A stretch of 64,000 nt of DNA from a virus. The stretch lies in IMG/VR virus record IMGVR_UViG_3300008117_000023, positions 47,582 through 111,581 of that record. The stretch is one strand, 5' to 3'. The notes below the pieces were generated by a model. The model was given only the letters and a program-made list of their open reading frames with translations. It searched no databases and was not told where the DNA came from. Position numbers and translations under genes: made by a program. This document shows positions 7,592-40,700 of this stretch, in pieces. How positions within the stretch are numbered: position 1 is the first letter of the stretch; every line of letters begins with the position of its first letter.

Positions 7592-7770
7592 ACGAACGAA
7601 TTCAAGAACTTGAAATCCAATGTTGGGAGCCTCGTCAGTATGGACCTGCTTGGTTTAACTCAACAAAGTTCGCCGAGTTGATTGTTCGGGAATGTATGTC
7701 TAATTTATATCTACATGGGTATGACGATGCTAGGGCACAGATTAAACAGCATTTTGGAGTTGAAGAATGA
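7588..7770 (+). CDS. Small protein, FAELIVREC family (copy 1)
   Basis: 60 residues, ATGA overlap with the previous gene. Contains KFAELIVREC and a C-terminal IKQHFGVEE, both shared with the next gene. Families of such small proteins are common in T4-like environmental phages; function unknown. Confidence 0.7.
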   Translation: MNERIQELEIQCWEPRQYGPAWFNSTKFAELIVRECMSNLYLHGYDDARAQIKQHFGVEE

Positions 7771-16288: not shown

Positions 16289-16317
16289 TTGACACAGAAC
16301 TTTTTCGGTGTTATACT
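16289..16317 (+). promoter_or_regulatory. Sigma70-type promoter (tRNA operon, proximal)
   Basis: TTGACA 16289-16294, 17-base spacer, TATACT 16312-16317; leads into a boxA-like leader and the first tRNA. Confidence 0.85.
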
Positions 16318-16342
16318 ACGTAAACTGTAACAAGTTTACAAA

Positions 16343-16356
16343 CGTTCTTTAAAAAG
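16343..16356 (+). promoter_or_regulatory. boxA-like antitermination site
   Basis: CGTTCTTTAAAAA in the leader between the promoter and the first tRNA. It resembles boxA of proteobacterial rRNA leaders (TGCTCTTTAACA type), which binds NusB/S10. Its place in an untranslated operon that must be read through many structures fits an antitermination role. Confidence 0.55.
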
Positions 16357-16371
16357 TTGAATACGGAAACA
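16357..16371 (+). repeat. Left arm of 15-base inverted repeat around tRNA block
   Basis: TTGAATACGGAAACA, the exact reverse complement of 21318-21332. It lies just after the boxA-like site; the partner lies just after tRNA-Val. Confidence 0.75.
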
Positions 16372-16424
16372 GATTAATCTGTTTTCATCTGTGTACAAAA
16401 GTGTACAGTTGAAAGCAGATTTAT

Positions 16425-16500
16425 TCCTCAGTAGCACAGCGGTAGTTGCACTTGACTGTTAATCAAGGTGTCCGTGGTTCGATCCCACGCTGAGGAGCCA
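16425..16500 (+). tRNA. tRNA-Asn(GTT)
   Basis: Cloverleaf with acceptor TCCTCAG/CTGAGGA, anticodon stem CTTGA/TCAAG around GTT, T-arm GGTTCGATCCC, encoded CCA. First tRNA of the array. Confidence 0.95.
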
Positions 16501-16505
16501 ATTTA

Positions 16506-16595
16506 GGAGCGTGGGCCGGATGGTAAGGCAGCGGTTTGCTAAACCGTAGATCACGTAAAAAGGGTCACAGGGTTCGACTCCCTGACGCTCCGCCA
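16506..16595 (+). tRNA. tRNA-Ser(GCT)
   Basis: 90 bases with long variable arm, acceptor GGAGCGT/ACGCTCC, anticodon GCT, encoded GCCA end. Confidence 0.94.
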
Positions 16596-16603
16596 AATTA
16601 AAT

Positions 16604-16678
16604 GCACGATTCGTCTATCGGTTAGGACGCTGCCCTTTCAAGGCGGAAAGACGAGTTCGATTCTCGTATCGTGTACCA
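16604..16678 (+). tRNA. tRNA-Glu(TTC)
   Basis: Acceptor GCACGAT/ATCGTGT (first pair G-U), anticodon loop CTTTCAA, T-loop GTTCGATTC, encoded CCA. Confidence 0.93.
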
Positions 16679-16679
16679 A

Positions 16680-16930
16680 GTTTTTTAGTAAGTTGTTTAA
16701 GGTTACCTAGTCCGCTAGGGGTGAACGAAAAGGTGATTGCGTAGCAGAAATGCTCGGCCTTGATACCCATGAAGCAGGAGGGTTCTAGAGTATGACGAGA
16801 CACCATCGAGTCAAAGGGCAAGAACTATTCCAAACTCCAGGAAGGCGGCGGAACTACTAGGCCTGTAATGAGGTCTTGACGCAAGTTGGTGATGCGTGTC
16901 AAGAACTTCCTCAAACAATTTATTAAAGAT
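16680..16930 (+). ncRNA. Uncharacterised structured RNA between tRNAs
   Basis: About 250 bases with no ORF and no tRNA, inside the tRNA transcript. It holds CCTAG-TCCG-CTAGG (16706-16719) and a longer hairpin with GAGG/CCTC and CTTGAC/GTCAAG arms (16870-16912). No known family recognised; RNase P and tmRNA signatures are absent. Confidence 0.4.
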
Positions 16931-16933
16931 TTT

Positions 16934-17010
16934 GCACCGTTAGCTCAGTTGGTTAGATCGCTTGCCTGTCACGCAAGAGGCCAGGGGTTCGAGTCCCCTA
17001 CGGTGCGCCA
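16934..17010 (+). tRNA. tRNA-Asp(GTC)
   Basis: Acceptor GCACCGT/ACGGTGC, anticodon stem CTTGC/GCAAG around GTC, encoded GCCA. Confidence 0.95.
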
Positions 17011-17016
17011 TATTAG

Positions 17017-17044
17017 TTGACTTTGATTGTAAAGAGTGTACAAT
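17017..17044 (+). promoter_or_regulatory. Sigma70-type promoter inside tRNA array
   Basis: TTGACT 17017-17022, 16-base spacer, TACAAT 17039-17044, between tRNA-Asp and tRNA-Thr. Confidence 0.65.
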
Positions 17045-17063
17045 TAAAATATAGAAAGTTTTT

Positions 17064-17137
17064 GCCCTTATAGTTAAATGGTATAACGACGGTTTTGTAA
17101 TCCGTAGTTTGCAGTTCGATTCTGTGTAGGGGCACCA
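17064..17137 (+). tRNA. tRNA-Thr(TGT)
   Basis: Acceptor GCCCTTA/TAGGGGC, anticodon loop TTTGTAA, encoded ACCA. The fifth anticodon-stem pair is a T-T mismatch. Confidence 0.88.
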
Positions 17138-17151
17138 AAGTGTTAGTTTTT

Positions 17152-17235
17152 GCCCCGGTGGTGTAATGGTAGCCACGCTGGTCTTAGAAGCCAGTGCCGC
17201 AAGGCGTGTCGGTTCGAGTCCGACCTGGGGCACCA
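17152..17235 (+). tRNA. tRNA-Leu(TAG)
   Basis: 84 bases with long variable arm; anticodon stem CTGGT/GCCAG around TAG; T-arm GTCGGTTCGAGTCCGAC; encoded ACCA. Confidence 0.94.
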
Positions 17236-17245
17236 ATGTTAGTAA

Positions 17246-17319
17246 GCGGGATTAGTTTAATGGTAAAACAGCAGATTTCCAATCTTCGGTCATCAGTTCG
17301 ATTCTGATATCCCGCTCCA
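17246..17319 (+). tRNA. tRNA-Gly(TCC)
   Basis: Acceptor GCGGGAT/ATCCCGC, anticodon loop TTTCCAA, encoded TCCA; one mismatch in the anticodon stem. Confidence 0.92.
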
Positions 17320-17335
17320 ATTTTAAAAGGTAGAT

Positions 17336-17560
17336 ATGAAAGCAAAAACTTTAAGTCGTGGTCCAACTATTGATACTAATAAATGTGTTGAAAATGTTGG
17401 TGGTAGATTTGATCTAGTATTAATTGCTTCAGTTAGAGCTAGAGAAATAGCAAGGAAACACAGGAACGACGAAATGTCTACCCAAGTTAATGCGCCAGTT
17501 TCTGCACTGCTTGAAATTCAAGAAGGCAAAATTGGTAGAGAGTATCTAAGAAAAGTATAA
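17336..17560 (+). CDS. rpoZ: RNA polymerase omega subunit homologue
   Basis: 74 residues. KCVENVGGRFDLVLIASVRA at about 17-36 followed by REI, and later VSALLEIQEGKIG, reproduce the core of bacterial omega (VEKxxNRFDLVLxAxxRARQ ... ALREIxEGLI). Omega latches the beta-prime subunit and affects sigma choice and the ppGpp response. Length is close to short omegas. It sits alone between tRNA-Gly and tRNA-Pro, so it should be expressed with the tRNAs. AAGG precedes the ATG. A phage-borne omega could replace host omega in RNAP; this is inference. Confidence 0.85.
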   Translation: MKAKTLSRGPTIDTNKCVENVGGRFDLVLIASVRAREIARKHRNDEMSTQVNAPVSALLEIQEGKIGREYLRKV

Positions 17561-17561
17561 T

Positions 17562-17639
17562 CGGAGTGTGGCGCAGTCTGGCTAGCGCACCTGGTTTGGG
17601 ACCAGGGGGTCCAAGGTTCGAATCCTTGTACTCCGACCA
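17562..17639 (+). tRNA. tRNA-Pro(TGG)
   Basis: Starts with C, acceptor CGGAGTG/TACTCCG, anticodon stem CCTGG/CCAGG around TGG, encoded ACCA. Begins 1 base after the rpoZ stop. Confidence 0.94.
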
Positions 17640-17645
17640 TTTTTT

Positions 17646-17720
17646 GGGCTGTTAGTGATAATGGGAGCACGGGGCCTTTGCAAGGCTTAGGTCGGGGTTC
17701 GATCCCCCGACGGTCCACCA
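17646..17720 (+). tRNA. tRNA-Ala(TGC)
   Basis: Acceptor GGGCTGT/ACGGTCC with G-U pairs, anticodon loop TTTGCAA, T-arm CGGGGTTCGATCCCCCG, encoded ACCA. Confidence 0.92.
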
Positions 17721-17726
17721 AATATG

Positions 17727-17799
17727 CGGGTATGATGTAATGGTAACCTGAAACCTTGCCAAGGTTTATTCGCGAGTTCGATTCTCGCTACCCGCTCCA
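17727..17799 (+). tRNA. tRNA-Gly(GCC)
   Basis: Acceptor GCGGGTA/TACCCGC, anticodon stem AAACC/GGTTT around GCC, encoded TCCA. Confidence 0.93.
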
Positions 17800-17828
17800 A
17801 ATGTTTTAGAAATATTTTTAAAAAGATG

Positions 17829-17857
17829 TTGACAAGACAGTAAAAATTTGCTAAAAT
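17829..17857 (+). promoter_or_regulatory. Promoter of the giant structured RNA
   Basis: TTGACA 17829-17834, 17-base spacer, TAAAAT 17852-17857; predicted start near 17864, just before the structured region. Confidence 0.85.
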
Positions 17858-17863
17858 AGACAC

Positions 17864-19080
17864 ATGTTAAGAATTTAAGGGTGGTTTATCATCCTGTAGG
17901 CGGCTTGCCGTTTACAAAGAATAAGTGTGGCGACACACCCAAAGCTAGAATGCCTACATACTAGCGCCAGCAATGGTTCACGTAAACAAGCCTGCTCACT
18001 ACCGCGAGGTAGCGTTCACTCATAAGACCGGTGGATGTAACAGCAAAGCTGATGTATGGGAAAGAACATTGTTCGACGTGCCGCAAGGAACACGGGGCAG
18101 TGAAAAGTAACAGGTGGTGCTGACTTCCATATAAAACCAATCAGTTAGTTGGTATGAGAAAGGGTAGTGTACTTGTTCGAGGGGTCGCACCTAAGAGCTC
18201 GTATACAATGTAAATGGTTAGTGGGCTGTAGTAATACAGTACACCGATCGTGAAACATCACTGAGTAGCTCGCGAGGCAAAAGGTATGTGGTGAGTTGTA
18301 TTTTGTATTCCAAAAGAGTATGAAGCAACTGAGGCAGCTCATCGCGGTAGGTTAATGTAGATCAATGGTAGATCATCTTCCTGTTAAGAAGAATGCTGTC
18401 GGTTCAAATCCGATCATTTAAACAAAAATGCAAAGACTGCCTCGGTCGTATGTGAAAAGTATCTAATACTTGAGTGGTAACACAATCAAGTCTAATGAAG
18501 CTCGCAAGGTAACATTAGTTTATACTGGAAGTTTCGTAGGGTGTTAGCGCACTCGAATAGCTCGCAAGGTTAACGGAATAGATGGTGTAGAATAGCATAT
18601 GGCGTCAAGTCTACTGCCTGACTTAAAACGGCGATACTGTAAGCAGACTAGGTTACATAGTGATATGGACTTAGTGGATGTCTAGAGAACGTATACTCGC
18701 AAGGTGTACGGTAATGCTAGAGGTGCTTATGGTTAAGATGTAATCTCAGTCTTAACACTATTCTAAAACACATTACCACAAACAGCAATTAGAGCTGGTT
18801 GTATAACAATGTCGTAGTGTGTTTCAGAATAGCAGAAATGTTATGCACATGACAATTCGTTGTCAGCAAGAGAATGTCACGCTATAAAGGTTTCTTCGAA
18901 GGACTGATATAGTAGAAGGGGACGGGTTCAACTCCCGGCTGATCGGAAGATCGGCGCAGATTGGTTGCTAACTGGACTAGTATCCCAAGTGACGTACCGA
19001 GTCCCGCTCGAGCTTGTTAATTCGGGTGAATGGTGCTTATAACGATGGAAGTACTAATGAGTTGTCAGCTGTATAATATT
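17864..19080 (+). ncRNA. Giant ornate RNA, GOLLD/ROOL-like, with embedded tRNA-like domain
   Basis: About 1.2 kb without a credible ORF, with its own promoter. It has many GNRA-type hairpins: GTGTG-GCGA-CACAC (17925-17938), CTACC-GCGA-GGTAG (17999-18012), GCAA at 18083, GCGA at 18272, and GCAA in three CTCGCAAGG copies (18501, 18561, 18696). GGAA sits in a 7-bp stem (18938-18955). A 14-bp stem with one mismatch joins 18758-18772 to 18818-18832. A tRNA-Asn-like fold is enclosed by GAGGCAG (18331) and CTGCCTC (18437). GOLLD and ROOL RNAs are very large phage/prophage RNAs found next to tRNAs; size, setting and architecture fit. Exact class and ends are inferred. Confidence 0.72.
18351..18424 (+). 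ncRNA. tRNA-Asn(GTT)-like domain inside the giant RNA
   Basis: D-arm GATC/GATC, anticodon stem TCTTC/GAAGA around GTT, and T-arm GTCGG/CCGAT are good, but the acceptor (GTTAATG/CATTTAA) has two mismatches and there is no CCA. It is flanked by the perfect stem GAGGCAG/CTGCCTC. More likely a structural part of the large RNA than a charged tRNA, though processing cannot be ruled out. Confidence 0.65.
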
Positions 19081-19084
19081 TTGA

Positions 19085-19163
19085 AGCGGAGTAGAGGAGT
19101 CCAGTCGTCCTCGCTAGTCTCATAAGCTAGAGATCGCAGGTGCGAATCCTGCCTCCGCAACCA
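19085..19163 (+). tRNA. tRNA-Met(CAT), probably initiator type
   Basis: Anticodon loop CTCATAA. The counted 3' end CTCCGC-A-ACCA leaves base 1 (A) facing A72, an unpaired first position as in initiator tRNAs. The three consecutive G-C pairs typical of initiator anticodon stems are not present (CTAGT/GCTAG). It follows directly after the giant RNA. Confidence 0.8.
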
Positions 19164-19177
19164 GTTTTATTTTCAAA

Positions 19178-19267
19178 GGAAGCGTGGCAGAGCCCGGCTT
19201 ATTGCGTTAGTCTTGAAAACTAAAGACTCGAAAGGGTCCGTGAGTTCGAATCTCACCGCTTCCGCCA
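19178..19267 (+). tRNA. tRNA-Ser(TGA)
   Basis: 90 bases, acceptor GGAAGCG/CGCTTCC, anticodon stem TTAGT/ACTAA around TGA, long variable arm, encoded GCCA. Confidence 0.94.
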
Positions 19268-19282
19268 GACATTAAAAAATAC

Positions 19283-19311
19283 TTGACAAGTAGACACAAA
19301 TCATATACAAT
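19283..19311 (+). promoter_or_regulatory. Sigma70-type promoter
   Basis: TTGACA 19283-19288, 17-base spacer, TACAAT 19306-19311; drives the gene at 19338 and probably the following structured RNA. Confidence 0.83.
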
Positions 19312-19337
19312 TAACACATAGAGAAAAGGACACAAAC

Positions 19338-19910
19338 ATGGAACTTACACTTCGTAAAGCAAGCGCACTTCAGAACAGCATCAACGATACTGTTAAAAGT
19401 ATCACGTTGACACAAACAATTCGCATCAACGAGTTCCAAGAGGCTGAAGCTGAAATATCTAAGGCTGCTCAGGAATTTAACAGCAATGTGTTTCGTCGTG
19501 TAGCACTGACAGATGTGCTGTACGAAATTCGCAAGGCAGTGAGCCGTGCAAATGCACAAGCAGGTGTCAATGAAAAGTTGGCAGACTTGGCTCAGCTTGA
19601 GAAAGATATCCAATTCTTTTCAGGTCTAACAGCTCATGACGTTCGTGAGTCTGCTCAAGTCATTGAGGGCAAGTTGAATAAAATTCGGAACCGCAAAGAA
19701 GACACTCGTGCAAGTTTGTACGGCCACAGTGATGAAGTTAGTACTTCTGTATTGACTCGCAAAGATGTAGATACATTCCGTGCAAAAGTAGCAGAAGCCA
19801 AAAAGGCCAAGCAGAAATTGCAGGACGAGCTCTTAGAGCTTAATGTTCGTACAACTATTGCCCTAAGTGGTAAGGCTGTGGACATTCTTAAGCACGAAGA
19901 ATTGATCTAA
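19338..19910 (+). CDS. Coiled-coil protein, 190 aa
   Basis: Not recognised. Nearly all helical with long heptad-like stretches (EFQEAEAEISKAAQEFNS; RAKVAEAKKAKQKLQDELLE). No membrane segment or signal. AAAGG precedes the ATG. Its position between a serine tRNA and a large structured RNA, with its own promoter, makes RNA binding or assembly possible but unproven. Confidence 0.75.
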   Translation: MELTLRKASALQNSINDTVKSITLTQTIRINEFQEAEAEISKAAQEFNSNVFRRVALTDVLYEIRKAVSRANAQAGVNEKLADLAQLEKDIQFFSGLTAHDVRESAQVIEGKLNKIRNRKEDTRASLYGHSDEVSTSVLTRKDVDTFRAKVAEAKKAKQKLQDELLELNVRTTIALSGKAVDILKHEELI

Positions 19911-19911
19911 G

Positions 19912-20535
19912 GAAAACCCGGGCTCCCTTGCCCGTTATACACAGGGGGTGGGGCAGTCACCATAAAGAGTGCTAGGCGTGTAGTGCATTGGCCTTCCGAT
20001 CCCGTGTAGGGAATCCGGGGACGCATTAGGTGAGGTTTAGCACCTTTCCAAAAGAATAAATGTTATGGACAGAGTAACCGCTCAGTCTAGGGCTCATGTG
20101 GTGTGAGTAGCTAGACACTTTATAAATGCTCTTTGAAGTTTAACTACACTTGAGAACACCAGTAGGTACTAAGTCGACTAACTGCTGAACGTGCAAGGAA
20201 GATACGGAGTTAAACAGTTTGGTTCGATTCCAACAGAGAGCACCTATAAGGTTTTGGTAGTATGCTGGTAACAGTAAACTACCCGGAAGAAGGCGAGAGA
20301 TGAGGATGAACACCGTTATCGCTTCATGCGATGACTCCAATACTGGCAATCAGTCTTGAAAACTGATCGTGTTTGTATGCCCCGAATCTATCGAACTTGT
20401 GATTTGCTGTTCGGAAATACGCAAGCCACTGTGCTTTGCATATTGTAATTTGCTTAGGGCCTAGAGTAACCTCAGCCCGTTTGCACCTTGCACAGTTCAT
20501 TACTTACTTGCTAACTTTCGTTTTTTTATAAGTAA
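19912..20535 (+). ncRNA. Second large structured RNA with a tRNA-like module
   Basis: About 620 bases without an ORF. Hairpins seen: CGGGC/GCCCG at the start; GTCTAG/CTAGAC enclosing CTCAT/GTGAG (20085-20116); GGTAGT/AACTACC with a CTG-GTAA-CAG tip (about 20256-20283); ATCGC-TTCAT-GCGAT; an anticodon-arm look-alike TCAGT-CTTGAAA-ACTGA; and ATTACTTA/TAAGTAAT near the end. A tRNA-like part spans 20128-20244. Size is in the range of ROOL-type RNAs, but no class is proven. Confidence 0.55.
20128..20244 (+). ncRNA. tRNA-like structure (acceptor, T-arm, long central stem)
   Basis: GCTCTTT (20128-20134) pairs with AGAGAGC (20235-20241) followed by ACC; before it is a T-arm with GGTTCGATTCC. In place of D and anticodon arms is an 8-bp stem GTTTAACT/AGTTAAAC (20138-20145 with 20208-20215). 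The topology recalls the tRNA-like part of tmRNA, but it is far too short for tmRNA and has no tag frame. Confidence 0.5.
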
Positions 20536-20556
20536 TCTTACAAAGGAGACAAACTT

Positions 20557-21231
20557 ATGTATGCAACAGGTGTTTTTCGTTCTGCATCGCAGATTAATAG
20601 TGCAATGGGCCGTGTTTACGGACATATGGCACTGGCAGTTATCACATCAATGATTGTAAGTTATCTTGTAGGATCAAATACAACGCTGATGGAATTTTTC
20701 TTTACAGGCGCAATGAAATGGCTTGTAATCTTTGCGCCGCTTGTAGCCATTCTTGGCGTTAGCTTTGCAATGGACAAAATGAGTAAGAGTGCGTTACAGC
20801 TATTTTTACATGGATTTGCCGCATTAATGGGTCTAAGTTTTGCTACAATCTTTGTAGTATATAACATGGGAAGCATTGTAAGCGCATTCATGGGAGCTGC
20901 CGTTCTATTTGCTACAATGAGTGGCTATGGCTACTTCACTAAACGTAATTTGGACGGAGTTGGCCAATTTATGTTCATTGGGTTGATTGCGATTGTTATT
21001 GCAAGTATAATCAATATTTTTATTGGTAGTACAGTTTTTCAAATGGTCATTAGTGCTATCGGAATTATTGTGTTCTTAGGCTTAACAGCATACGACACAC
21101 AAAAGATTCGTGAGATGGTTAGTTACGACAATGATGGTAAGGCAGAAATTGCAGGCGCTCTTAGCTTGTACTTAGACTTTATCAACTTGTTCTTAATGTT
21201 ACTACAACTATTTGGTGGTCGTAAGGACTAA
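20557..21231 (+). CDS. Bax inhibitor-1 family membrane protein (YbhL/YccA-like)
   Basis: 224 residues, seven hydrophobic helices, soluble N-terminus with RSASQINSAMGRVYGHM, and the family C-terminus AGALSLYLDFINLFLMLLQL then FGGRKD, nearly identical to the ending of bacterial YbhL-type proteins. Bacterial YccA binds and inhibits FtsH; the family includes pH-gated calcium leak channels. An AAAGGAG site lies before the ATG. With the Band-7 protein at 6116 this suggests control of membrane proteolysis or lysis timing (inference). Confidence 0.9.
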   Translation: MYATGVFRSASQINSAMGRVYGHMALAVITSMIVSYLVGSNTTLMEFFFTGAMKWLVIFAPLVAILGVSFAMDKMSKSALQLFLHGFAALMGLSFATIFVVYNMGSIVSAFMGAAVLFATMSGYGYFTKRNLDGVGQFMFIGLIAIVIASIINIFIGSTVFQMVISAIGIIVFLGLTAYDTQKIREMVSYDNDGKAEIAGALSLYLDFINLFLMLLQLFGGRKD

Positions 21232-21238
21232 AGAATTT

Positions 21239-21313
21239 GCCTGGTTAGCTCAGGGGTAGAGCAACGCCTTTACACGGCGAAGGTCCGCGGTTCGAAACCG
21301 TGACCAGGTACCA
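21239..21313 (+). tRNA. tRNA-Val(TAC)
   Basis: Acceptor GCCTGGT/ACCAGGT, anticodon loop TTTACAC in stem CGCC/GGCG, T-arm CGCGGTTCGAAACCGTG, encoded ACCA. Confidence 0.93.
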
Positions 21314-21317
21314 GAAA

Positions 21318-21332
21318 TGTTTCCGTATTCAA
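21318..21332 (-). repeat. Right arm of 15-base inverted repeat around tRNA block
   Basis: TGTTTCCGTATTCAA, exact reverse complement of 16357-16371, directly after tRNA-Val. Together they bracket about 4.9 kb of tRNAs, rpoZ, the two large RNAs and the BI-1 gene. Confidence 0.75.
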
Positions 21333-21383
21333 GAGTGTGGCAAAAATACAACAATATTTTTGTCACTTTTTAAAGAAAATCTC

Positions 21384-21412
21384 TTGACAGAGATAAATAA
21401 ATACAGTATACT
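21384..21412 (+). promoter_or_regulatory. Sigma70-type promoter
   Basis: TTGACA 21384-21389, 17-base spacer, TATACT 21407-21412. The spacer contains the late octamer GATAAATA. Confidence 0.82.
21392..21399 (+). promoter_or_regulatory. T4-like late promoter motif GATAAATA
   Basis: Lies within the spacer of the sigma70-type promoter, so early and late start signals overlap here. Confidence 0.5.
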
Positions 21413-21448
21413 ATACACATAGTAAGAAATTAACTAACAGAAAGAAAG

Positions 21449-21550
21449 ATGATCAAAATGTTTAAGCAAATTAGAAAACATCAGATGTTTTGCATTCGCT
21501 GGTATCGACTACCAGGCGAGGGCCTTTCTGTAGGAGCAAGTTACGCATAA
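21449..21550 (+). CDS. Short ORF, 33 aa
   Basis: Basic peptide MIKMFKQIRKHQMFCIRWY... ending SVGASYA; AGAAAG upstream of the ATG. The region folds into TGGTA-TCGAC-TACCA. As at 16002-16118, it is a tiny unit with early-type promoter, late motif and terminator. Could be a peptide or a small RNA. Confidence 0.4.
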   Translation: MIKMFKQIRKHQMFCIRWYRLPGEGLSVGASYA

Positions 21551-21570
21551 CCAGTAACAGCTCAAAAAAC

Positions 21571-21617
21571 AAAAAGACCCTCGGAATGTAAAATACTCCG
21601 GGGGTTTTTCTTTTAGT
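21571..21617 (+). terminator. Rho-independent terminator
   Basis: AAAAAGACCC-CGGA / TCCG-GGGGTTTTT hairpin followed by CTTTT, ending the short ORF unit. Confidence 0.8.
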
Positions 21618-21619
21618 GC

Positions 21620-21842
21620 TATAGGAAACGAGATCCTGCTATCACTTTAAACTAGCAAATGGGCGGCCTAGGGGATGAAGTCTGTGGCGACAACACAGAT
21701 GTTAAAATCCTAGAGTAGTTAAGAACACTATAGGGACGACTGGACTCATAGCCCAGAACTTTGTAAAAGGCGTTATTAGTGTTCTTAACTACACACTCTT
21801 CATTCGCCCTGCGACGGCGTCTAAAAGCATAGCGGAGAGTGT
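21620..21842 (+). ncRNA. Structured RNA with perfect 16-bp stem
   Basis: Three hairpin units and no ORF: TCTGTG/CACAGA (21681-21699) closed by CTAGG/CCTAG; a perfect 16-bp stem GTAGTTAAGAACACTA (21715-21730) with its complement at 21777-21792 enclosing 46 bases that hold an anticodon-arm-like CTGG...CCAG; and ACACTCT/AGAGTGT (21793-21842) enclosing CGCC/GGCG. It ends 10 bases before tRNA-Tyr. No known family recognised. Confidence 0.55.
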
Positions 21843-21852
21843 CACTAAGTTT

Positions 21853-21939
21853 GGAGATGTAGGAAAATTGGTAACCCCAGTGGACTGTAAATCCGCCGCC
21901 CTTCGGGCACTACTGGTTCGACTCCAGTCATCTCCACCA
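21853..21939 (+). tRNA. tRNA-Tyr(GTA)
   Basis: 87 bases with long variable arm (GCCCTTCGGGC), acceptor GGAGATG/CATCTCC, anticodon loop CTGTAAA, encoded ACCA. Confidence 0.94.
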
Positions 21940-21944
21940 AACAT

Positions 21945-22019
21945 AGCCGCGTAGCTCAGAGGAAGAGCACTCGCTTGATAAGCGATAGGTCGACATTTCG
22001 AAACTGTCCGTGGCTACCA
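21945..22019 (+). tRNA. tRNA-Ile(GAT)
   Basis: Acceptor AGCCGCG/CGTGGCT, anticodon loop TTGATAA, encoded ACCA; T-stem is imperfect. Confidence 0.9.
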
Positions 22020-22026
22020 AATTAAT

Positions 22027-22100
22027 GTATCTCTAATGTAATGGCAGCATCACAGTCTCCAAAACTGTTCGTCGGGGTTCGAGTCCCTGGAGGTACGCCA
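22027..22100 (+). tRNA. tRNA-Trp(CCA)
   Basis: Acceptor GTATCTC/GAGGTAC, anticodon stem ACAGT/ACTGT around CCA, encoded GCCA. Confidence 0.93.
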
Positions 22101-22107
22101 AGTATAA

Positions 22108-22182
22108 CTCGCTTTAGTATAATGGATAATACAGTAGGCTTCTACCCTACGAATATGGGTTCGATTCCTGTAGGCGAGGCCA
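22108..22182 (+). tRNA. tRNA-Arg(TCT)
   Basis: Acceptor CTCGCTT/AGGCGAG, anticodon stem GTAGG/CCTAC around TCT, encoded GCCA. Confidence 0.92.
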
Positions 22183-22189
22183 GTAATAC

Positions 22190-22267
22190 GCACAGGTGGC
22201 AGAGAGGCCCAATGCAGTGGATTGCAAATCCGCAAAACCGTGAGTTCGAATCTCACCCTGTGCTCCA
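22190..22267 (+). tRNA. tRNA-Cys(GCA)
   Basis: Acceptor GCACAGG/CCTGTGC, anticodon stem GTGGA/TCCGC around GCA, encoded TCCA. Confidence 0.93.
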
Positions 22268-22388
22268 GTTACTGCAACAATCCGCTCGGGCTTCGTAGCG
22301 GAATGTAGTATTGAAGCCTATAAGTCCTGTGGAAGCAGGGGTCTAGATCCGTGTCCAAAGCGGTGTGGCTAACGAAGTGCCAAATTTA
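22268..22388 (+). ncRNA. Structured spacer RNA
   Basis: About 120 bases between tRNA-Cys and tRNA-Gln. TCCGCT/AGCGGA, CCTGT-GGAA-GCAGG, and a longer-range GGC-TTCGT with ACGAA-GT-GCC enclosing helix. No ORF. Family unknown. Confidence 0.42.
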
Positions 22389-22389
22389 T

Positions 22390-22463
22390 TGGGGTATAGT
22401 GTAATGGTAGCACCACAGACTTTGACTCTGTTAGTCTAGGTTCGAACCCTAGTACCCCTGCCA
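22390..22463 (+). tRNA. tRNA-Gln(TTG)
   Basis: Anticodon stem ACAGA/TCTGT around TTG; T-arm CTAGGTTCGAACCCTAG; acceptor GGGGTA/TACCCC with T-T at the first position (weak first pair is normal for tRNA-Gln); encoded GCCA. Confidence 0.91.
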
Positions 22464-22464
22464 T

Positions 22465-22540
22465 AGTGATGTAGCATAGCGGCTAATGTACCTCCTTCAT
22501 ACGGAGTTTATCGTCGGTTCGAGTCCGACCATCACTACCA
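22465..22540 (+). tRNA. tRNA with CAT anticodon (elongator Met or Ile2)
   Basis: Acceptor AGTGATG/CATCACT, anticodon loop TTCATAC, T-arm GTCGGTTCGAGTCCGAC, encoded ACCA. As another CAT tRNA (19085) looks like the initiator and the phage has TilS, this could be the lysidine-modified tRNA-Ile2 or the elongator tRNA-Met; sequence alone does not decide. Confidence 0.88.
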
Positions 22541-22558
22541 ACTTTAAAGGAGAAATAT

Positions 22559-22750
22559 ATGCCAACGATTAGATATCTTGATACTAGTATGTACGGATCG
22601 TATTTTGTCGACTGCGAAATATTAGAAAAAATAGACGAAGACACATTTAAGATTAAATTCTATGATGACAATATAGATGAATATGAAATAAAGGTAGTTG
22701 AGCGTGATCGTCTTGAGTTTCCTAAGTTTAGTGATTACGCATCTTATTAA
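22559..22750 (+). CDS. Small acidic hypothetical protein in tRNA array
   Basis: 63 residues, beta-rich and acidic (CEILEKIDEDTFKIKFYDDN). AAAGGAG lies 8 bases before the ATG, a strong site. Not recognised. Between tRNA genes, so expressed from the same transcript. Confidence 0.7.
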   Translation: MPTIRYLDTSMYGSYFVDCEILEKIDEDTFKIKFYDDNIDEYEIKVVERDRLEFPKFSDYASY

Positions 22751-22838
22751 GGAGAAAACAAAATGGGGCGATCGTAGTTTTACTTATGATAGTAGCTTTA
22801 ATTTACTTTATTGACAAAAATTTAAAATAGGAGAATGA

Positions 22839-22905
22839 CATGAAACGTTCAAGTAAACGTTAGTGTCAACCTTGACCCCGTATTGGTCCTGGTTGGCACA
22901 TTAAA
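22839..22905 (+). other. Minimal leader ORF and hairpin
   Basis: A 7-codon ORF (MKRSSKR) after GGAGAATGAC is followed at once by GTGTCAACC/GGTTGGCAC with an inner GACC/GGTC, like a leader peptide plus attenuator without a T-run. It lies between the 63-aa gene and tRNA-Lys. Function uncertain. Confidence 0.3.
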
Positions 22906-22924
22906 TCAATTTAATTACGACCAA

Positions 22925-23000
22925 CCACTTGTAGCGTTAACGGTAGCGCACTTGACTCTTAATCAATGAGGTGTGAGTTCGAATCTCACCGGGTGGACCA
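22925..23000 (+). tRNA. tRNA-Lys(CTT)
   Basis: Acceptor CCACTTG/CGGGTGG, anticodon loop CTCTTAA, T-arm GTGAGTTCGAATCTCAC, encoded ACCA. Body resembles tRNA-Asn at 16425 (TAGCG-GTAG-GCACTTGAC), perhaps a diverged duplicate. Confidence 0.9.
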
Positions 23001-23004
23001 ATAC

Positions 23005-23080
23005 GGGAGTATGGTGAAATGGTTATCACAGCAGACTTTTAATCTGCCAGTTCCGGGTTCGAGTCCCGGTGCTCCTACCA
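23005..23080 (+). tRNA. tRNA-Lys(TTT)
   Basis: Anticodon stem GCAGA/TCTGC around TTT, T-arm CCGGGTTCGAGTCCCGG, encoded ACCA. Confidence 0.94.
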
Positions 23081-23205
23081 TAGATAAACACACTTTCAAT
23101 CTGAATTGACAGATACAAACAACCAAGGGGAGCCTCTGGGTTCATCCAGTTTCATCCTGAATTGACAGGAACAAGGTTGTAAGGGGAGCCGAGTGTGTTT
23201 TTCTA
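23081..23205 (+). ncRNA. Tandem two-module structured RNA
   Basis: Two copies of one module lie in a closing stem (AAACACACT 23086-23094 with AGTGTGTTT 23192-23200). Each module has a hairpin with the identical six-base loop AATTGA (TCTG/CAGA at 23100-23113; TCCTG/CAGGA at 23155-23170), a six-base strand, then the identical AAGGGGAGCC (23125-23134 and 23181-23190). The strands are complementary to each other: ACAACC (23119) and GGTTGT (23175). A CTGG/CCAG hairpin separates the modules. No known family recognised. Confidence 0.6.
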
Positions 23206-23213
23206 TGGTAATA

Positions 23214-23288
23214 CGGCCCTTGGTGAAATGGATATCATTTCGGTCTTCGAAACCGACGGTGGGAGTTCGATCCTCTCAGGGCCGGCCA
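23214..23288 (+). tRNA. tRNA-Arg(TCG)
   Basis: Acceptor CGGCCCT/AGGGCCG, anticodon stem TCGGT/ACCGA around TCG, encoded GCCA. Confidence 0.93.
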
Positions 23289-23295
23289 AATATAT

Positions 23296-23370
23296 ACCCC
23301 TGTCGTTCAATGGATAGGATACCATGCTACGAACGTGGGGACGGTGGTTCGATTCCATCCAGGGGTGCCA
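23296..23370 (+). tRNA. tRNA-Arg(ACG)
   Basis: Acceptor ACCCCTG/CAGGGGT, anticodon stem CCATG/CGTGG around ACG (A34 would need deamination by host TadA), encoded GCCA. Confidence 0.92.
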
Positions 23371-23376
23371 ATCAAT

Positions 23377-23450
23377 GGTGTTGTTAGTGTAGTGGTAACA
23401 CGACTGTCTGTGAAACAGTAGACCAGGGTTCGATTCCCGACTTCACCCCA
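23377..23450 (+). tRNA. tRNA-His(GTG)
   Basis: Anticodon stem ACTGT/ACAGT around GTG. Extra G at -1 faces discriminator C (ACTTCAC-C-CCA), the bacterial tRNA-His identity element. Acceptor GTGTTGT/ACTTCAC has two T-T mismatches. Confidence 0.88.
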
Positions 23451-23454
23451 AATT

Positions 23455-23576
23455 TGTAGTAACCAGCTAGGTGCTGTGTAAAAGGTGTTGCGGATAGTAG
23501 AGGTCTCATAGAGATAAGCTCGCTGTCGTTAAAGATCGTGACGCAAACTAATTGAGTTTTGTCTCAACCTACTACA
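23455..23576 (+). ncRNA. Structured RNA between tRNA-His and tRNA-Phe
   Basis: Closing stem TGTAGTA (23455-23461) with TACTACA (23570-23576); inside, TTGAG-TTTTGT-CTCAA (23552-23567) and TCTC-ATA-GAGA. No ORF, no tRNA. Family unknown. Confidence 0.5.
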
Positions 23577-23586
23577 TTTTATTTTT

Positions 23587-23662
23587 GCCGCTTTAGCTGA
23601 TGTGGTCATAGCAACGGATTGAAAATCCGAGGAACCCTGTTCGATCCGGGGAGGCGGCACCA
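23587..23662 (+). tRNA. tRNA-Phe(GAA)
   Basis: Acceptor GCCGCTT/AGGCGGC, anticodon loop TTGAAAA in stem CGGA/TCCG, encoded ACCA. Last plus-strand tRNA. Confidence 0.93.
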
Positions 23663-23686
23663 TTAACTGTGTATGATTTTATATTA

Positions 23687-23763
23687 TGGAGCGACCGGGG
23701 GATTCGAACCTCCGCTTCTTGGGTTACAGTCCCAAGTGTAGTGACCACTCTACTACGAGTCGC
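23687..23763 (-). tRNA. Minus-strand tRNA, anticodon probably TGT (Thr), uncertain
   Basis: On the minus strand: acceptor GCGACTC/CGGTCGC (last pair mismatched), a six-pair anticodon stem CTTGGG/CCCAAG with loop ACTGTAA, T-loop TTCGAAT, encoded TCCA. The central triplet is TGT, but position 33 would be C rather than the near-universal T; a shifted reading gives GTA (Tyr). Possibly a degenerate gene. It is the only tRNA on this strand. Confidence 0.68.
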
Positions 23764-23771
23764 ATATTGAT

Positions 23772-24614
23772 TTAAGGTATTGTGCTACTAGTTGCCAACA
23801 GTTCTTTTATTTTGTCAAAAATTATCTTATTTCCTTCTGCGTTCATTGCATTAGCAGATTGTTGATAACCAATGTTATATTGGCTGTTATCTTTATATAG
23901 CTCGCGCATAGAAAGATCTACAGGTCCAGACGTAATAGTATACCAAGAAGGGTACCATTGATCTTTACTAAAAAAATGTACACAGGGTATTTTTTTATTA
24001 TGCAAGTACGAATCAATTTGCATTAATGCCCCATAGTATCTGTTTAATTGTAAATCTGGATGATACATATATTTTCTAGTTAGTTCAAAAGCAGTCCAAA
24101 GTTCTTGGTAAAACTTTTCATCGTCTGATGCTATTCGAACCTGATCTAATAGTGCTTGTTTAATTTCACTACTATCCCCATCTTGCCATTTTATAAATGC
24201 ATCAGTATAGTTTTCAAAATGAATGTTATAATATTCTAATAATTGTAAACATGCTCCGTTAGGGACGTTTTCAAAAAAATCAATATAAAAATCATGTTCT
24301 TTAAAGTCAGTTCCCCACATTGATTCTACCCAATTTCGAGCAGTGTATTTTCTATCAAATGTAGTTTTGTCTATGTTCGAAACATCTTTGTTCCAGCTAG
24401 GCATAAAGATATGATACGGTGCGGCATGGAATATAATTGCTGTATCTAGTTTTTTAGTTTTCTTTAAATTGAATAATATTCTTTCCTCACTGCAATGTGG
24501 GATTCCAGAATGGACAATATTAGCATCAAACTCTTTTTTTAATAAACTTACAAAATTCCATTCTTGGTTAGGATCATATCTAGAAATACTATCTCCATAC
24601 ACACCTATGTTCAT
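23772..24614 (-). CDS. SGNH/GDSL-type hydrolase-like protein
   Basis: 280 residues on the minus strand. It begins MNIGVYGDSISRYDPNQEW, giving the block I GDS motif with Ser nucleophile, then NIVHSGIPHCSEERI (block II Gly region) and AIIFHAAPYH (block III). The C-terminal catalytic Asp/His block is less clear. Family members are esterases or acetylhydrolases of sugars. With the adjacent minus-strand tRNA it forms a small inverted island in plus-strand surroundings, like a late-acquired cargo gene. Confidence 0.6.
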   Translation of the reverse strand: MNIGVYGDSISRYDPNQEWNFVSLLKKEFDANIVHSGIPHCSEERILFNLKKTKKLDTAIIFHAAPYHIFMPSWNKDVSNIDKTTFDRKYTARNWVESMWGTDFKEHDFYIDFFENVPNGACLQLLEYYNIHFENYTDAFIKWQDGDSSEIKQALLDQVRIASDDEKFYQELWTAFELTRKYMYHPDLQLNRYYGALMQIDSYLHNKKIPCVHFFSKDQWYPSWYTITSGPVDLSMRELYKDNSQYNIGYQQSANAMNAEGNKIIFDKIKELLATSSTIP

Positions 24615-37760: not shown

Positions 37761-40700
37761 ATGGCAAGAAAAGAGATTAACATTGGCGTAGAAGGCAATG
37801 ACGGCACAGGTGATAGTATCCGTGAGTCGTTTAGAAAGACCAACGAAAACTTTAATGAACTATATGCTATTTTTGGAGCAGGCGGTACTATTAGATTTAC
37901 TACGCTAAGTGATACTCCTGACGGCTATGAACCTAATACTGTATTATTTGTTGATTCAAACGCTGACGGAATTAAATTTAGAGCCTTAGCTTCTAATTCA
38001 GCTGCTGATCCTACTGCCGACGATAGTATTTTAATTAGCTATGATACTCCTAATAAAATTGTACTGTCAACATCTTTCAGAGCATTATCACAAGATTTAT
38101 CACCGCAATTAGGCGGTCCTTTAGATGGAAGAAATAAAGCTATTGCTCGTATAGCAATATCACAAGAAGCAGTTGACGAGTTTAACGCAGAACAACCTAA
38201 TCCTCAAATAACCATTGACGATCTAGTTATTACCAAAGGTTACGCTGATAATAGATATATTGCGGGTGCCTTACCAATTAGAATTCCAGACGAGCCTGCT
38301 AATGCAAGTGATTATACGTTGGTTATTGAATCTTATTCAAATGGTAATATTGTAGTTACTGGTCACGGATTTGACAATACCATTAACGGAACTCCTTACA
38401 AATTTCGAGCAGAAGATACTGATCCATCCGGAATAGTAACTGATACAACTTATTATTTACGGTATGCTACAGCAAATCAATTAAGTGTACATGCTACCAG
38501 AGCCGATGCTACTGTTCTAAGTCAGTCCGATGCCAATACAAATAAGATATTCATTACGGGTACTATTGGTGTAGATGATGAGCATATTTTTGTTGATGCT
38601 GCATACGACTCAAACTTACAAGGATTTTATCTAGCTAATCAAGCAATACCTAGAAAATCAGTAGTTCGCCGTCAGGGTGATAAGATGACTGGACCGTTGA
38701 TACTGCATGACAGCCCAGGCGAACTTGCAGGGCTAGCCAGCAGCGATGAAGATTTACAAGCAGCAACTAAATTTTATGTTGACAATACCAGTTATGCTAG
38801 TATCAGTAACTTATATGTAACTACGCAGGGCGACGATAGAATGACAGGAGTGCCAGCTGGTAAAGCAGGAACTTCTTGGAGTTATGCGTATAGAACTATT
38901 AACGCAGCAGCTCGGCGAGCTGAAGAAATTATTCAAGCATCTGAAGCTGAACCCGGTCCGTACATGCAGACTATTACTCGAGACGGCGGCACAACACCAG
39001 CTGAAGTACTTGAAGCTGCCATTGTTACTCCTGTGTTTAATCAAGCAAGGTATTTGATCGAACAAAATAGAGCGTTTGTTGTTAGTGAAGTTACAGGTTA
39101 CTTACAATTTAAATATCCTAATTTTGATTATAATATTGAAACTTGCGAACGTGATCTAGGTTTGATTTTAGATTCTATTGCATTTGATATTAATAGAGGA
39201 CCCGCAGTTGATGCTACAGCTAACTACCTAACAAGATTGGCTGCTGAAAGATATTATGCTAATGCAAGTGCTATTGTAGCAATTACAAGACAATTAACAG
39301 AAACTGTTGATGCTATTAATACTGCAAGAGATATGATTGCAGCAGTTCTGTTAAATCGTCCATATTTACAAAGACCAATATCAAATATTACACAAGCAGC
39401 TATAGCAAGAGTTACTACTAGCGTTTCACATAATCTAGTAAGCGGTAATCAGGTGATTATTAAAAATGTATCTGGTATGACACAGGTCAACGAGAACGTT
39501 TATTATGTAAGAGTAGTAAGCCCAAATCAATTTGAGTTATTCACTGATCGAACACTATTAACCGCAGTAAATTCATTATCTTTTACAGCATATAGTTCGG
39601 GCGGTATAATTGGTATTAGATATCAAGACGACGAAGGTCAATTTTTTGATATTGGTAATGATGCTGACGCAACATCAAGAACTGCTATCAGTGATAAGTT
39701 TAATTTAGTTACCAACATTATCCAGAACGGTATTAATGCTGGTGCATTAGTAGTATATGGTAGTACATACAAAGTTGTTGTTAATAACGGCGGTCTTAGT
39801 GCAATTGACCAAGGTGTAGGCAATAACGTAGACTTATTACCAGGAAAAATACTAGTTGGTAAAATATCAGGCGCACAAGGACGTATTGTTAGCTTAACAA
39901 CTAATGATCCAGCCGAAGGCGGCCAAGATAAAATTCTTGTGCATTTAATAAAGCCTATTGATTTTATACCAGGTGAAGATCTAGAGTTTGATAATTTTGT
40001 TAAACGCAAACAGATTACGATTTTTATTGAATCAGGTATTTATGAAGAAGACTACCCTATTAAAGTTGCTGCCAACGTTTCAGTTGTGGGTGATGAATTT
40101 CGTCGCGTAATTATAAGACCAAATCGTCGAGTATCTCAATCACCTTGGGCAAGTACTTACTTCTACAGAGATTTAGAATTTGATGGTATACCGCTGGTTA
40201 CAGGAGGTAATAGATTCTATAACCAAGTAGGCGAAATACAAGGTAGATTTGGATATCATTACTTAGAAAATCCAACCAAAGTTAAAAACACAGGCACGTC
40301 TGTTGTAAACCCAGGAAAATTTTCAACAGCCTCAAACATTCTTCAAGAAAATAAAAAGTTTATACAAGAAGAAGTAATTGCGTATATCAATCAAAACTTC
40401 CAAGATTTGCTCTACGACAAAATTCAGTTTGCTAGCGACTTTGGAGAAATACTTGACGGCATTACCTATGACATAGTATTAGGTACAAATTACAATCAAG
40501 TACTAGAAGGATTAAAATTTTCTCGTGCAGGCAGTATATACAGAGATTCATATCTAAGAGAACTTTGGGTAGATGCATTAATTAGAGCTAGAAATCTTGT
40601 TTCAGCATTACCAGCAGTTATTAGTAGTGCAACTGCAACTACTAGATCAAACACAGCGTTTAATGAAATAATTGATATTATTCAAAACGGTGTTGTTAGT

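Follow-up and report, generated by a model that had tools for sequence, protein, structure and literature searches.

The non-coding stretch at positions 17864-19080 of the window (the whole 64,000-nucleotide stretch of DNA analysed here, taken from a virus record of 111,581 bases) raises two questions: which RNA it encodes, and why a fold resembling a tRNA lies inside that RNA. The sequence-only reading had proposed a giant RNA of about 1.2 kb, of the GOLLD or ROOL type, with an embedded tRNA-like domain that made this copy special. The explanation favoured here, with a probability of about 0.4 for the whole, is a GOLLD RNA that carries a tRNA mimic in its linker, most likely as a tRNA bait.

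Class and extent of the RNA

The Rfam GOLLD model (RF02032), a search proposed earlier as a check, matches positions 18288-18752 on the plus strand with 201 bits (cutoff 150, E 3e-55) and is covered over its full length (model positions 1-416 of 416), which corresponds to the complete conserved 3' domain. The ROOL half of the original assignment is rejected: ROOL is likewise a phage cage RNA often encoded near tRNA islands (according to the accessible part of PMC12286853), but the window RNA has no match to its covariance model, with nothing at the gathering threshold in the window and nothing even at E<=1 in 16300-24000. A coding explanation is rejected as well. As the sequence-only reading had held, no credible open reading frame is present: 17864-18770 contains four frames of at least 40 amino acids, which are 45-65 amino acids long and of which three are antisense, and every frame contains at least one stop in the relatives examined. 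The covariance-model score, the size of about 900 nt, the covarying 5' domain described below and the location inside a tRNA array together make membership of the GOLLD family, as first proposed, virtually certain. ARAGORN makes 28 calls in the window, the embedded one included; the 27 others, one of them on the minus strand, form the array around GOLLD at 16425..23763. The clamp-loader protein is closest (at most 55% identity) to those of PA5oct-like phages, Atu_ph07, Phosso and XacN1, and the source therefore looks like a large tRNA-rich phage.

Relatives were gathered through a neighbour protein (49 loci) and through DNA motifs (loci found by motif being minimum counts), and among the records tested at the outset Rfam detected GOLLD in 19 of one set of 49 and in 5 of another of 18. 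A nucleotide profile made from the Rfam-positive relatives and run over at least 320 loci (designated by L numbers) yielded at least 144 full-span 3' domains, at least 100 of them distinct; the 100 distinct sequences used below include the window's own, and the loci added only by a DNA motif designed on relatives that bear the embedded tRNA-like module rest on this profile without Rfam re-scoring. Among the matches listed, the number of the 100 distinct sequences with similarity to the window is 29 at 17875, 29-57 at 17875-17925, and 60-97 from 17950 to 18750, then drops on the 3' side from 60 (18750) through 21 (18775) to 2 (18800); outside the conserved unit at most 11 of the 100, among the same matches, are similar, up to the tRNA at 19085. 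This distribution delimits an RNA unit of about 900 nt, in which the 5' domain takes up about 424 nt and the 3' domain 465 nt, followed by a short tail, with its approximate 3' end, on the plus strand, where similarity declines at 18753..18770. The extent of about 1.2 kb proposed earlier is thus upheld to near 18770, and the remainder (18775-19080), where so few of the listed matches are similar, is rejected as part of the RNA. A 14-bp stem with one mismatch, also noted earlier, does exist at 18758-18771/18819-18832, but lies mostly outside GOLLD, similarity being nearly gone by 18800.

A near-consensus sigma-70-type promoter is predicted on the plus strand at 17829..17857 (TTGACA-17-TAAAAT, extended -10 with TG before the -10 element), with 11 of 12 positions matching, in agreement with the promoter first read from the sequence. 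A scan of 17700-19400 found four comparable sites where 3.1 are expected from shuffles, so the weight of this promoter comes from its position just upstream of the conserved RNA. Promoter-like sites with at most three mismatches in 12 lie near the 5' start of 10 of 30 sequences (the window included), compared with 1 of 120 control windows.

The 5' domain (17864..18287, plus strand, about 424 nt) is not spanned by the Rfam model and is delimited by similarity and covariation. Its central part (17950-18250) is similar in 60-71 of the 100 distinct sequences among the matches listed, fewer than at the start of the 3' domain. In 30 sequences its 118 consensus pairs are formed in 97.0% of cells, with 536 double-change cells against 142 in shuffled alignments, and slid controls pair in 36-40%. 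In the env-38 GOLLD, whose structure was solved by cryo-EM (Kretsch et al. 2025, PMC12286853), the two domains comprise residues 1-420 and 421-833 according to the text consulted; the window RNA resembles it in having a conserved 3' domain, a 5' domain of about 420 nt and a phage origin near tRNAs, and its 5' domain, likened to that of env-38 by size and position and not pair by pair, would by analogy be a cap domain. From its family membership, the window GOLLD would in all likelihood assemble into a 14-chain RNA cage like the one solved for another GOLLD; expression that rises at lysis counts among the other traits of the family.

The hairpins to which the earlier reading drew attention are present. 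Eight GNRA hairpins with stems of at least 3 bp occur in 17864-19080 (shuffled mean 2.8, a number reached in 5 of 500 shuffles), seven of them with stems of at least 4 bp (reached in 0 of 500); inside 17864-18770 there are six (6 of 500 shuffles) and five (0 of 500), respectively. All three copies of the conserved hairpin element CTCGCAAGG stand on the plus strand, at 18501..18509, 18561..18569 and 18696..18704.

The tRNA fold in the linker

The tRNA-Asn(GUU)-like fold reported earlier is confirmed by an ARAGORN call and by the Rfam tRNA model (57.4 bits) at 18351..18423 on the plus strand, and by the covariation described below. It has a 4-bp acceptor stem (18354-18357/18415-18418) and an anticodon at 18383-18385. 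The perfect 7-bp stem said to enclose it (GAGGCAG/CTGCCTC, 18331-18337/18437-18443) likewise stands and can be extended to nine pairs, with strands at 18329..18337 and 18437..18445 on the plus strand. In 95 of the 100 sequences among the matches listed (five without the search motif being left out), the enclosing helix is paired in 98-100% at seven of the eight positions counted and in 85% at the eighth, and several of its pairs show changes on both sides. The fold lies 64-136 nt into the 3' domain, a placement like that of the env-38 linker (nt 497-538, or 77-118 nt into the 3' region, in the part of PMC12286853 consulted); the env-38 linker, however, is 42 nt long and unresolved, whereas that of the window holds a tRNA mimic of about 70 nt closed by a helix of its own of up to nine pairs.

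The embedded domain does not make this copy special. A cloverleaf occupies the same linker in 93 of the 100 distinct sequences among the matches listed, window included, and in 80 of the 100 distinct domains among the matches listed the linker tRNA is picked up by ARAGORN; since the motif was designed on module-bearing relatives and the profile was built mostly from module-bearing sequences, 93 of 100 is no prevalence for GOLLD as a whole. The occurrence of tRNAs in the GOLLD linker is already in print: PMC12286853, in the text consulted, states in one sentence and a figure legend that they sometimes sit there, which describes the same kind of object, treated as a phage-encoded tRNA that is sometimes present.

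Seven sequences were set aside from the linker alignment: L003 and L263 have a plain linker, L114, L122, L198 and L239 have no cloverleaf, and L187 is permuted. The remaining 93 contain 85 different linkers, and these can be aligned as cloverleaves, although a few are defective in one arm. The module (four acceptor pairs and the D, anticodon and T stems) is paired in 98.2% of cells compared with 68.3% in shuffled alignments, with 435 double-change cells against 114 and double changes at 17 of 18 pairs against 14.6, in shuffles that do not preserve the relatedness of the rows; slid controls pair in at most 51%. RNAalifold, given no structure, recovers 17 of the 18 pairs, adds no others and forms no outer acceptor pair. 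The residues of the elbow and anticodon loop are retained as well: T55 and A58 in all 85 linkers, C56, G19 and U33 in 83 each, and a purine at position 37 in 82. The covariation in homologues called for as a check is therefore strong both in the 5' domain and in the linker module, and the tRNA fold in the linker is shown to be maintained by selection.

The acceptor end does not share in this conservation. Among 80 embedded modules, acceptor pairs 4-7 are formed in 96-99%, whereas pairs 1, 2 and 3 are formed in 51, 41 and 60%, which is near random; among 1075 other distinct tRNAs of the same loci (two unparsable ARAGORN calls were left out of the comparison), all seven pairs individually reach 91-96%. 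CCA is encoded by 3 of the 80 modules compared with 1036 of the 1075 other tRNAs, and 7 of the 80 attain a full stem of seven acceptor pairs when G-U pairs are included. The window mimic pairs at acceptor positions 2 and 4-7 only, with mismatches at 1 and 3, and has no CCA, whereas 21 of the 22 array tRNAs checked in the window end in CCA, among them a complete tRNA-Asn(GUU) at 16425-16500 that is 64% identical to the mimic. An exact-match scan of the viral collection with this lineage's linker flanks followed by CCA found two loci, L134 and L172. A rescue of the outer acceptor pairs by bulged pairing with a downstream AAC, judged by eye, was rejected, as the RNAalifold consensus lacks it. Of the features of a functional tRNA, the seven-pair acceptor stem and the encoded CCA are thus absent from the module and the signature of the elbow and anticodon loop is present. 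The 4-bp acceptor stem and the lack of CCA, with few exceptions, make an ordinary decoding tRNA very unlikely, and the linker module is most probably a non-decoding tRNA mimic.

Plant-virus tRNA-like structures and other tRNA mimics are also viral RNAs that imitate tRNA. The plant-virus structures classically imitate the acceptor end in order to be charged, and it is this end that the mimic in the GOLLD linker lacks.

The mimic marks one lineage and not the whole GOLLD family. A looser 3' motif gave at least 108 new loci, of which 100 were tested and 48 have GOLLD over the cutoff (L321-L340 and L342-L369; the second GOLLD of record G139 is left out of these 48 domains). Among the matches listed, 37 of the 48 have a short A/T-rich linker (295-333 bits), seven have an ARAGORN tRNA in the linker (160-199 bits) and four are of neither type, one of which (L363, identical to L281) aligns as a cloverleaf. 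The existence of plain-linker GOLLDs indicates that the mimic is not essential to GOLLD. A narrow 3' motif made from the window found GOLLD in 13 of 24 records, 12 of them with the tRNA fold and several being copies of one sequence, and an exact-match scan of genome contigs for the embedded-module pattern returned none.

The permuted linker of L187 (IMGVR_UViG_3300009154_000117, from about locus position 7596) holds a circularly permuted tRNA inside GOLLD, in which the T arm, the 3' acceptor strand and CCA come ahead of TAAATTTAT and the 5' half stands last; after re-ordering, ARAGORN reads seven acceptor pairs and CCA. It is the sole match in the viral collection to a pattern for permuted linker tRNAs.

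Anticodons, cultured phages and possible roles

The anticodons GUU, UUU, CUU and UCU account for 65 of the 85 linkers (rows that are related, and so not 85 independent cases) compared with 105 of 999 array tRNAs, and of the 83 loci with array tRNAs, 37 have the linker anticodon among these as well. On a tree of the flanks with the linker removed (85 rows), the anticodon requires at least 42 changes, where 16 is the least possible and shuffles average 52.4, none of 200 going so low. In this quickly built tree 30 of 81 inner branches have less than 80% support; counted on the well-supported branches only, GUU, UUU, CUU and UCU still require at least 13, 10, 9 and 7 changes, respectively. Five pairs of loci were compared for exchange. 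L185 and L188, the only pair with both flanks near 99%, share 98.9% (185 nt) and 99.7% (324 nt) identity in the flanks but 59.4% in the module; L149 and L146 are 99.1% identical in the 3' flank and 63.4% in the module, but just 79.8% in the 5' flank, and three further pairs are less clear. Misassembly of metagenome contigs into chimaeras may underlie pairs of the L185/L188 type. One clear pair and the tree nevertheless indicate that the module is exchanged as a cassette. Within modules, the anticodon loop of 83 close metagenomic pairs changes hardly more than expected, if at all, and takes 55 of 449 differences (12.2% compared with 9.9% expected); loop-rich differences occur between L203 and L102 or L186 and between L112 and L196 (four of six each). 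In L120 and L320 the linker mimic has the anticodon CTA, of the amber-reading type.

GOLLD is also present in cultured phages. Neither the window RNA nor L363 matched any phage record by blastn, and the neighbour protein (19338-19910) matched none by tblastn; a protein search led to four related isolates, of which two, Sinorhizobium phage Phosso and Xanthomonas phage XacN1, have GOLLD by Rfam, and blastn with the Phosso RNA then led to the Caulobacter phages, which make up 18 of the 27 records matched. GOLLD scores over the cutoff in 10 of the 11 excerpts scanned (phiCbK, Swift, BL57, Mesorhizobium phage Cp1R7A-A1, Phaeobacter phage MD18, DSS3_MAL1, Phosso, XacN1, RAS14 and X1) and below it in that of an Erythrobacter phage. 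XacN1, Stenotrophomonas phage RAS14 and Xanthomonas phage X1 have a plain linker; the other 7 of the 10 have the tRNA fold. The Caulobacter phages (phiCbK, Swift, BL57 and relatives), Phosso, Cp1R7A-A1, MD18 and DSS3_MAL1 thus share the architecture of the window RNA, but the module is recorded only as tRNA-Lys, -Gly, -Leu or -Arg, and is unannotated in Phosso. The phiCbK genome paper, in its accessible text, reports that Rfam gave nothing beyond tRNAs (PMC3556154).

Twelve of the 18 Caulobacter records were compared. Six have the anticodon loop CGUCCUA (phiCbK, represented twice, Ccr10, Ccr29, Ccr34 and S2L), five have CUCUUAA and one (BL57) has CAUCCUA, while the other 65 positions of the module are identical in all 12. 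In the rest of the 892-column alignment the CGUCCUA and CUCUUAA types differ at 3-7 positions, and BL57 differs from phiCbK at 43. Such loop-only variation stands nearly alone beside the metagenomic pairs. The records annotate these modules as tRNA-Gly and tRNA-Lys. CGUCCUA and CAUCCUA lack U33 and have a pyrimidine at 37, and the Gly-type form of phiCbK should therefore not decode; some annotated phage tRNA genes, that of phiCbK tRNA-Gly for example, are probably not tRNA genes, which bears on the question of why phages carry tRNAs.

Two further observations concern these phages. Six of the 10 excerpts with GOLLD (L376, L381, L382, L383, L385 and L389, which come from XacN1, phiCbK, Swift, DSS3_MAL1, MD18 and BL57) also contain a permuted tmRNA (RF04321), no more than about 1.1 kb away from the GOLLD 3' domain. 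XacN1 (AP018399) has two plain-linker GOLLD copies, at 38570-38983 (unannotated in the record) and 357365-357778, apparently one in each of its terminal repeats, which are reported in the accessible text to contain 56 tRNA genes (PMC5852040).

Judged against the open literature searched, four points appear new: that the acceptor end is lost, that the anticodons are biased, that the module seems to be exchanged and that phiCbK-type phages carry it. Acceptor and CCA loss, anticodon bias and exchange go unmentioned in the accessible sections of PMC12286853, and titles and abstract openings on tRNA decoys against anticodon nucleases and on phage tRNA mimics contained nothing recognised as a mimic in the GOLLD linker. 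The cage structure, in the text consulted, revealed no GOLLD cargo (PMC12286853). A conserved, probably non-decoding mimic inside the cage points to tRNA-binding partners of GOLLD, and the cultured phages (the phiCbK group, Phosso, MD18, DSS3_MAL1 and the Mesorhizobium phage) make the function of GOLLD testable.

The role tentatively preferred is that of a nuclease bait. Placed inside the cage as in the solved relative, the linker would hold a mimic that keeps the tRNA elbow and anticodon arm, so that a partner would have to read those parts. Each cage would present many copies to those host proteins that hold on to the elbow and anticodon arm, above all the host anticodon nucleases of anti-phage defence, and the phage's real tRNAs encoded next to GOLLD would thereby be spared. 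The redundancy of the mimic with the complete tRNA-Asn(GUU) of the same array (at 16425) speaks for the explanation favoured here. In the sources consulted, the reported targets of AriB overlap the linker anticodons in part (GUU, UUU and UGU, not CUU or UCU), and the published hypothesis on phage tRNAs and such nucleases is one of escape, not of bait (PMC10264068, accessible text). Loops without U33 and with a pyrimidine at 37 mean that the phiCbK-type and BL57 modules imitate no working anticodon loop, and the phiCbK-type loops speak against a simple anticodon decoy. The cryo-EM structure of the env-38 type has the linker within a closed cage (PMC12286853, in the part consulted), so a bait there would be hidden unless the cage opens. 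An extension of the bait reading, possible but held with less conviction, is that the nanocage displays or encloses non-chargeable mimics whose anticodon loop is exchanged to keep track of the tRNA-cutting defences of hosts. If true, such swappable baits would be a counter-defence made of RNA only, and none of this kind was met in the titles and abstract openings of the literature searched.

Less probable than either is a docking or cargo handle, by which the mimic would bring ribosomes, or some other factor that binds tRNA, into or onto the cage to serve storage, shutdown or reprogramming late in infection, the anticodon tuning the codon or factor that is met. Kretsch et al. cite pull-down assays with ribosomes binding to GOLLD and suggest tRNAs or ribosomes as cargo (PMC12286853, in the part consulted), and the retention of the elbow and anticodon arm without the aminoacylation end fits contacts with the decoding centre or the elbow. 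The concentration on four anticodons is not readily explained by docking, however; module-free GOLLDs exist, and loops without U33 are not expected to decode.

It is improbable that tRNA genes of the array simply jump into the linker and decay there without function, although the array adjoins GOLLD, three loci have a CCA-bearing linker tRNA (L134 and L172, with the same Ile tRNA, and L267, with a Leu tRNA) and the linker of L187 holds a complete, circularly permuted tRNA. Neutral decay would not hold 18 pairs at 98% with 435 double-change cells, the same 4-bp acceptor stem recurs too regularly, and the anticodon make-up is sharply unlike that of the array. Still harder to sustain is a working tRNA that is cut from GOLLD, given CCA and charged: U33 and the purine at 37 in nearly all of the 85 linkers, and the seven acceptor pairs of a few modules, would suit it, but acceptor pairs 1-3 form at near-random rates, 3 of the 80 modules encode CCA, and the window copy is mismatched at pairs 1 and 3 beside a full tRNA-Asn that makes it redundant; the U33 signature, moreover, is missing from the phiCbK-type and BL57 loops. 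An equally poor prospect is loop-loop assembly, with the mimic's loop pairing between chains in the cage or with another RNA and the fold serving as a rigid arm, for although the UUAA of the GUU, UUU and CUU loops is self-complementary as read from the sequences, GOLLD chains use symmetric kissing loops (PMC12286853, in the part consulted) and the Caulobacter phage modules vary in the loop only, the UCU loops and CGUCCUA have no UUAA palindrome and the T-loop/D-loop elbow residues would need no conservation.

Other elements of the tRNA array

The array contains several further candidates for structured RNAs. One, separate from GOLLD, lies between it and tRNA-Met at 18855-19065, has no Rfam match at E<=1, and in 14 distinct homologues is paired in 93.4% of cells with 110 double-change cells, compared with 36 in shuffles. 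Another, at 20025-20246, ends in about 107 nt that by eye resemble a tRNA-like domain of the tmRNA type, with an acceptor stem, a long helix in place of the anticodon arm and a T arm with GGTTCGATTCC; it matches no tmRNA or tRNA model at E<=1, and in 10 distinct homologues is paired in 86.8% of cells compared with 77.4% in shuffles, with 59 double-change cells against 20. The third, at 20270-20530, has 107 double-change cells in 14 distinct homologues, compared with 32 in shuffles, and no Rfam match at E<=1. Two non-coding gaps in the array, 16680-16933 and 21600-21850, also look structured and have few diverged homologues among the loci collected (1 and 8 loci, respectively, at less than 97% identity). 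Between tRNA-Lys and tRNA-Arg, at 23081-23213, two tandem units of about 60 nt that end in AAGGGGAGCC were recognised by eye, and one relative, L127, has a stretch 93% identical to this repeat region. A small gene within the array, at 17336-17557, matches the omega/Rpb6 subunit of RNA polymerase (PF01192, E 1.3e-10).
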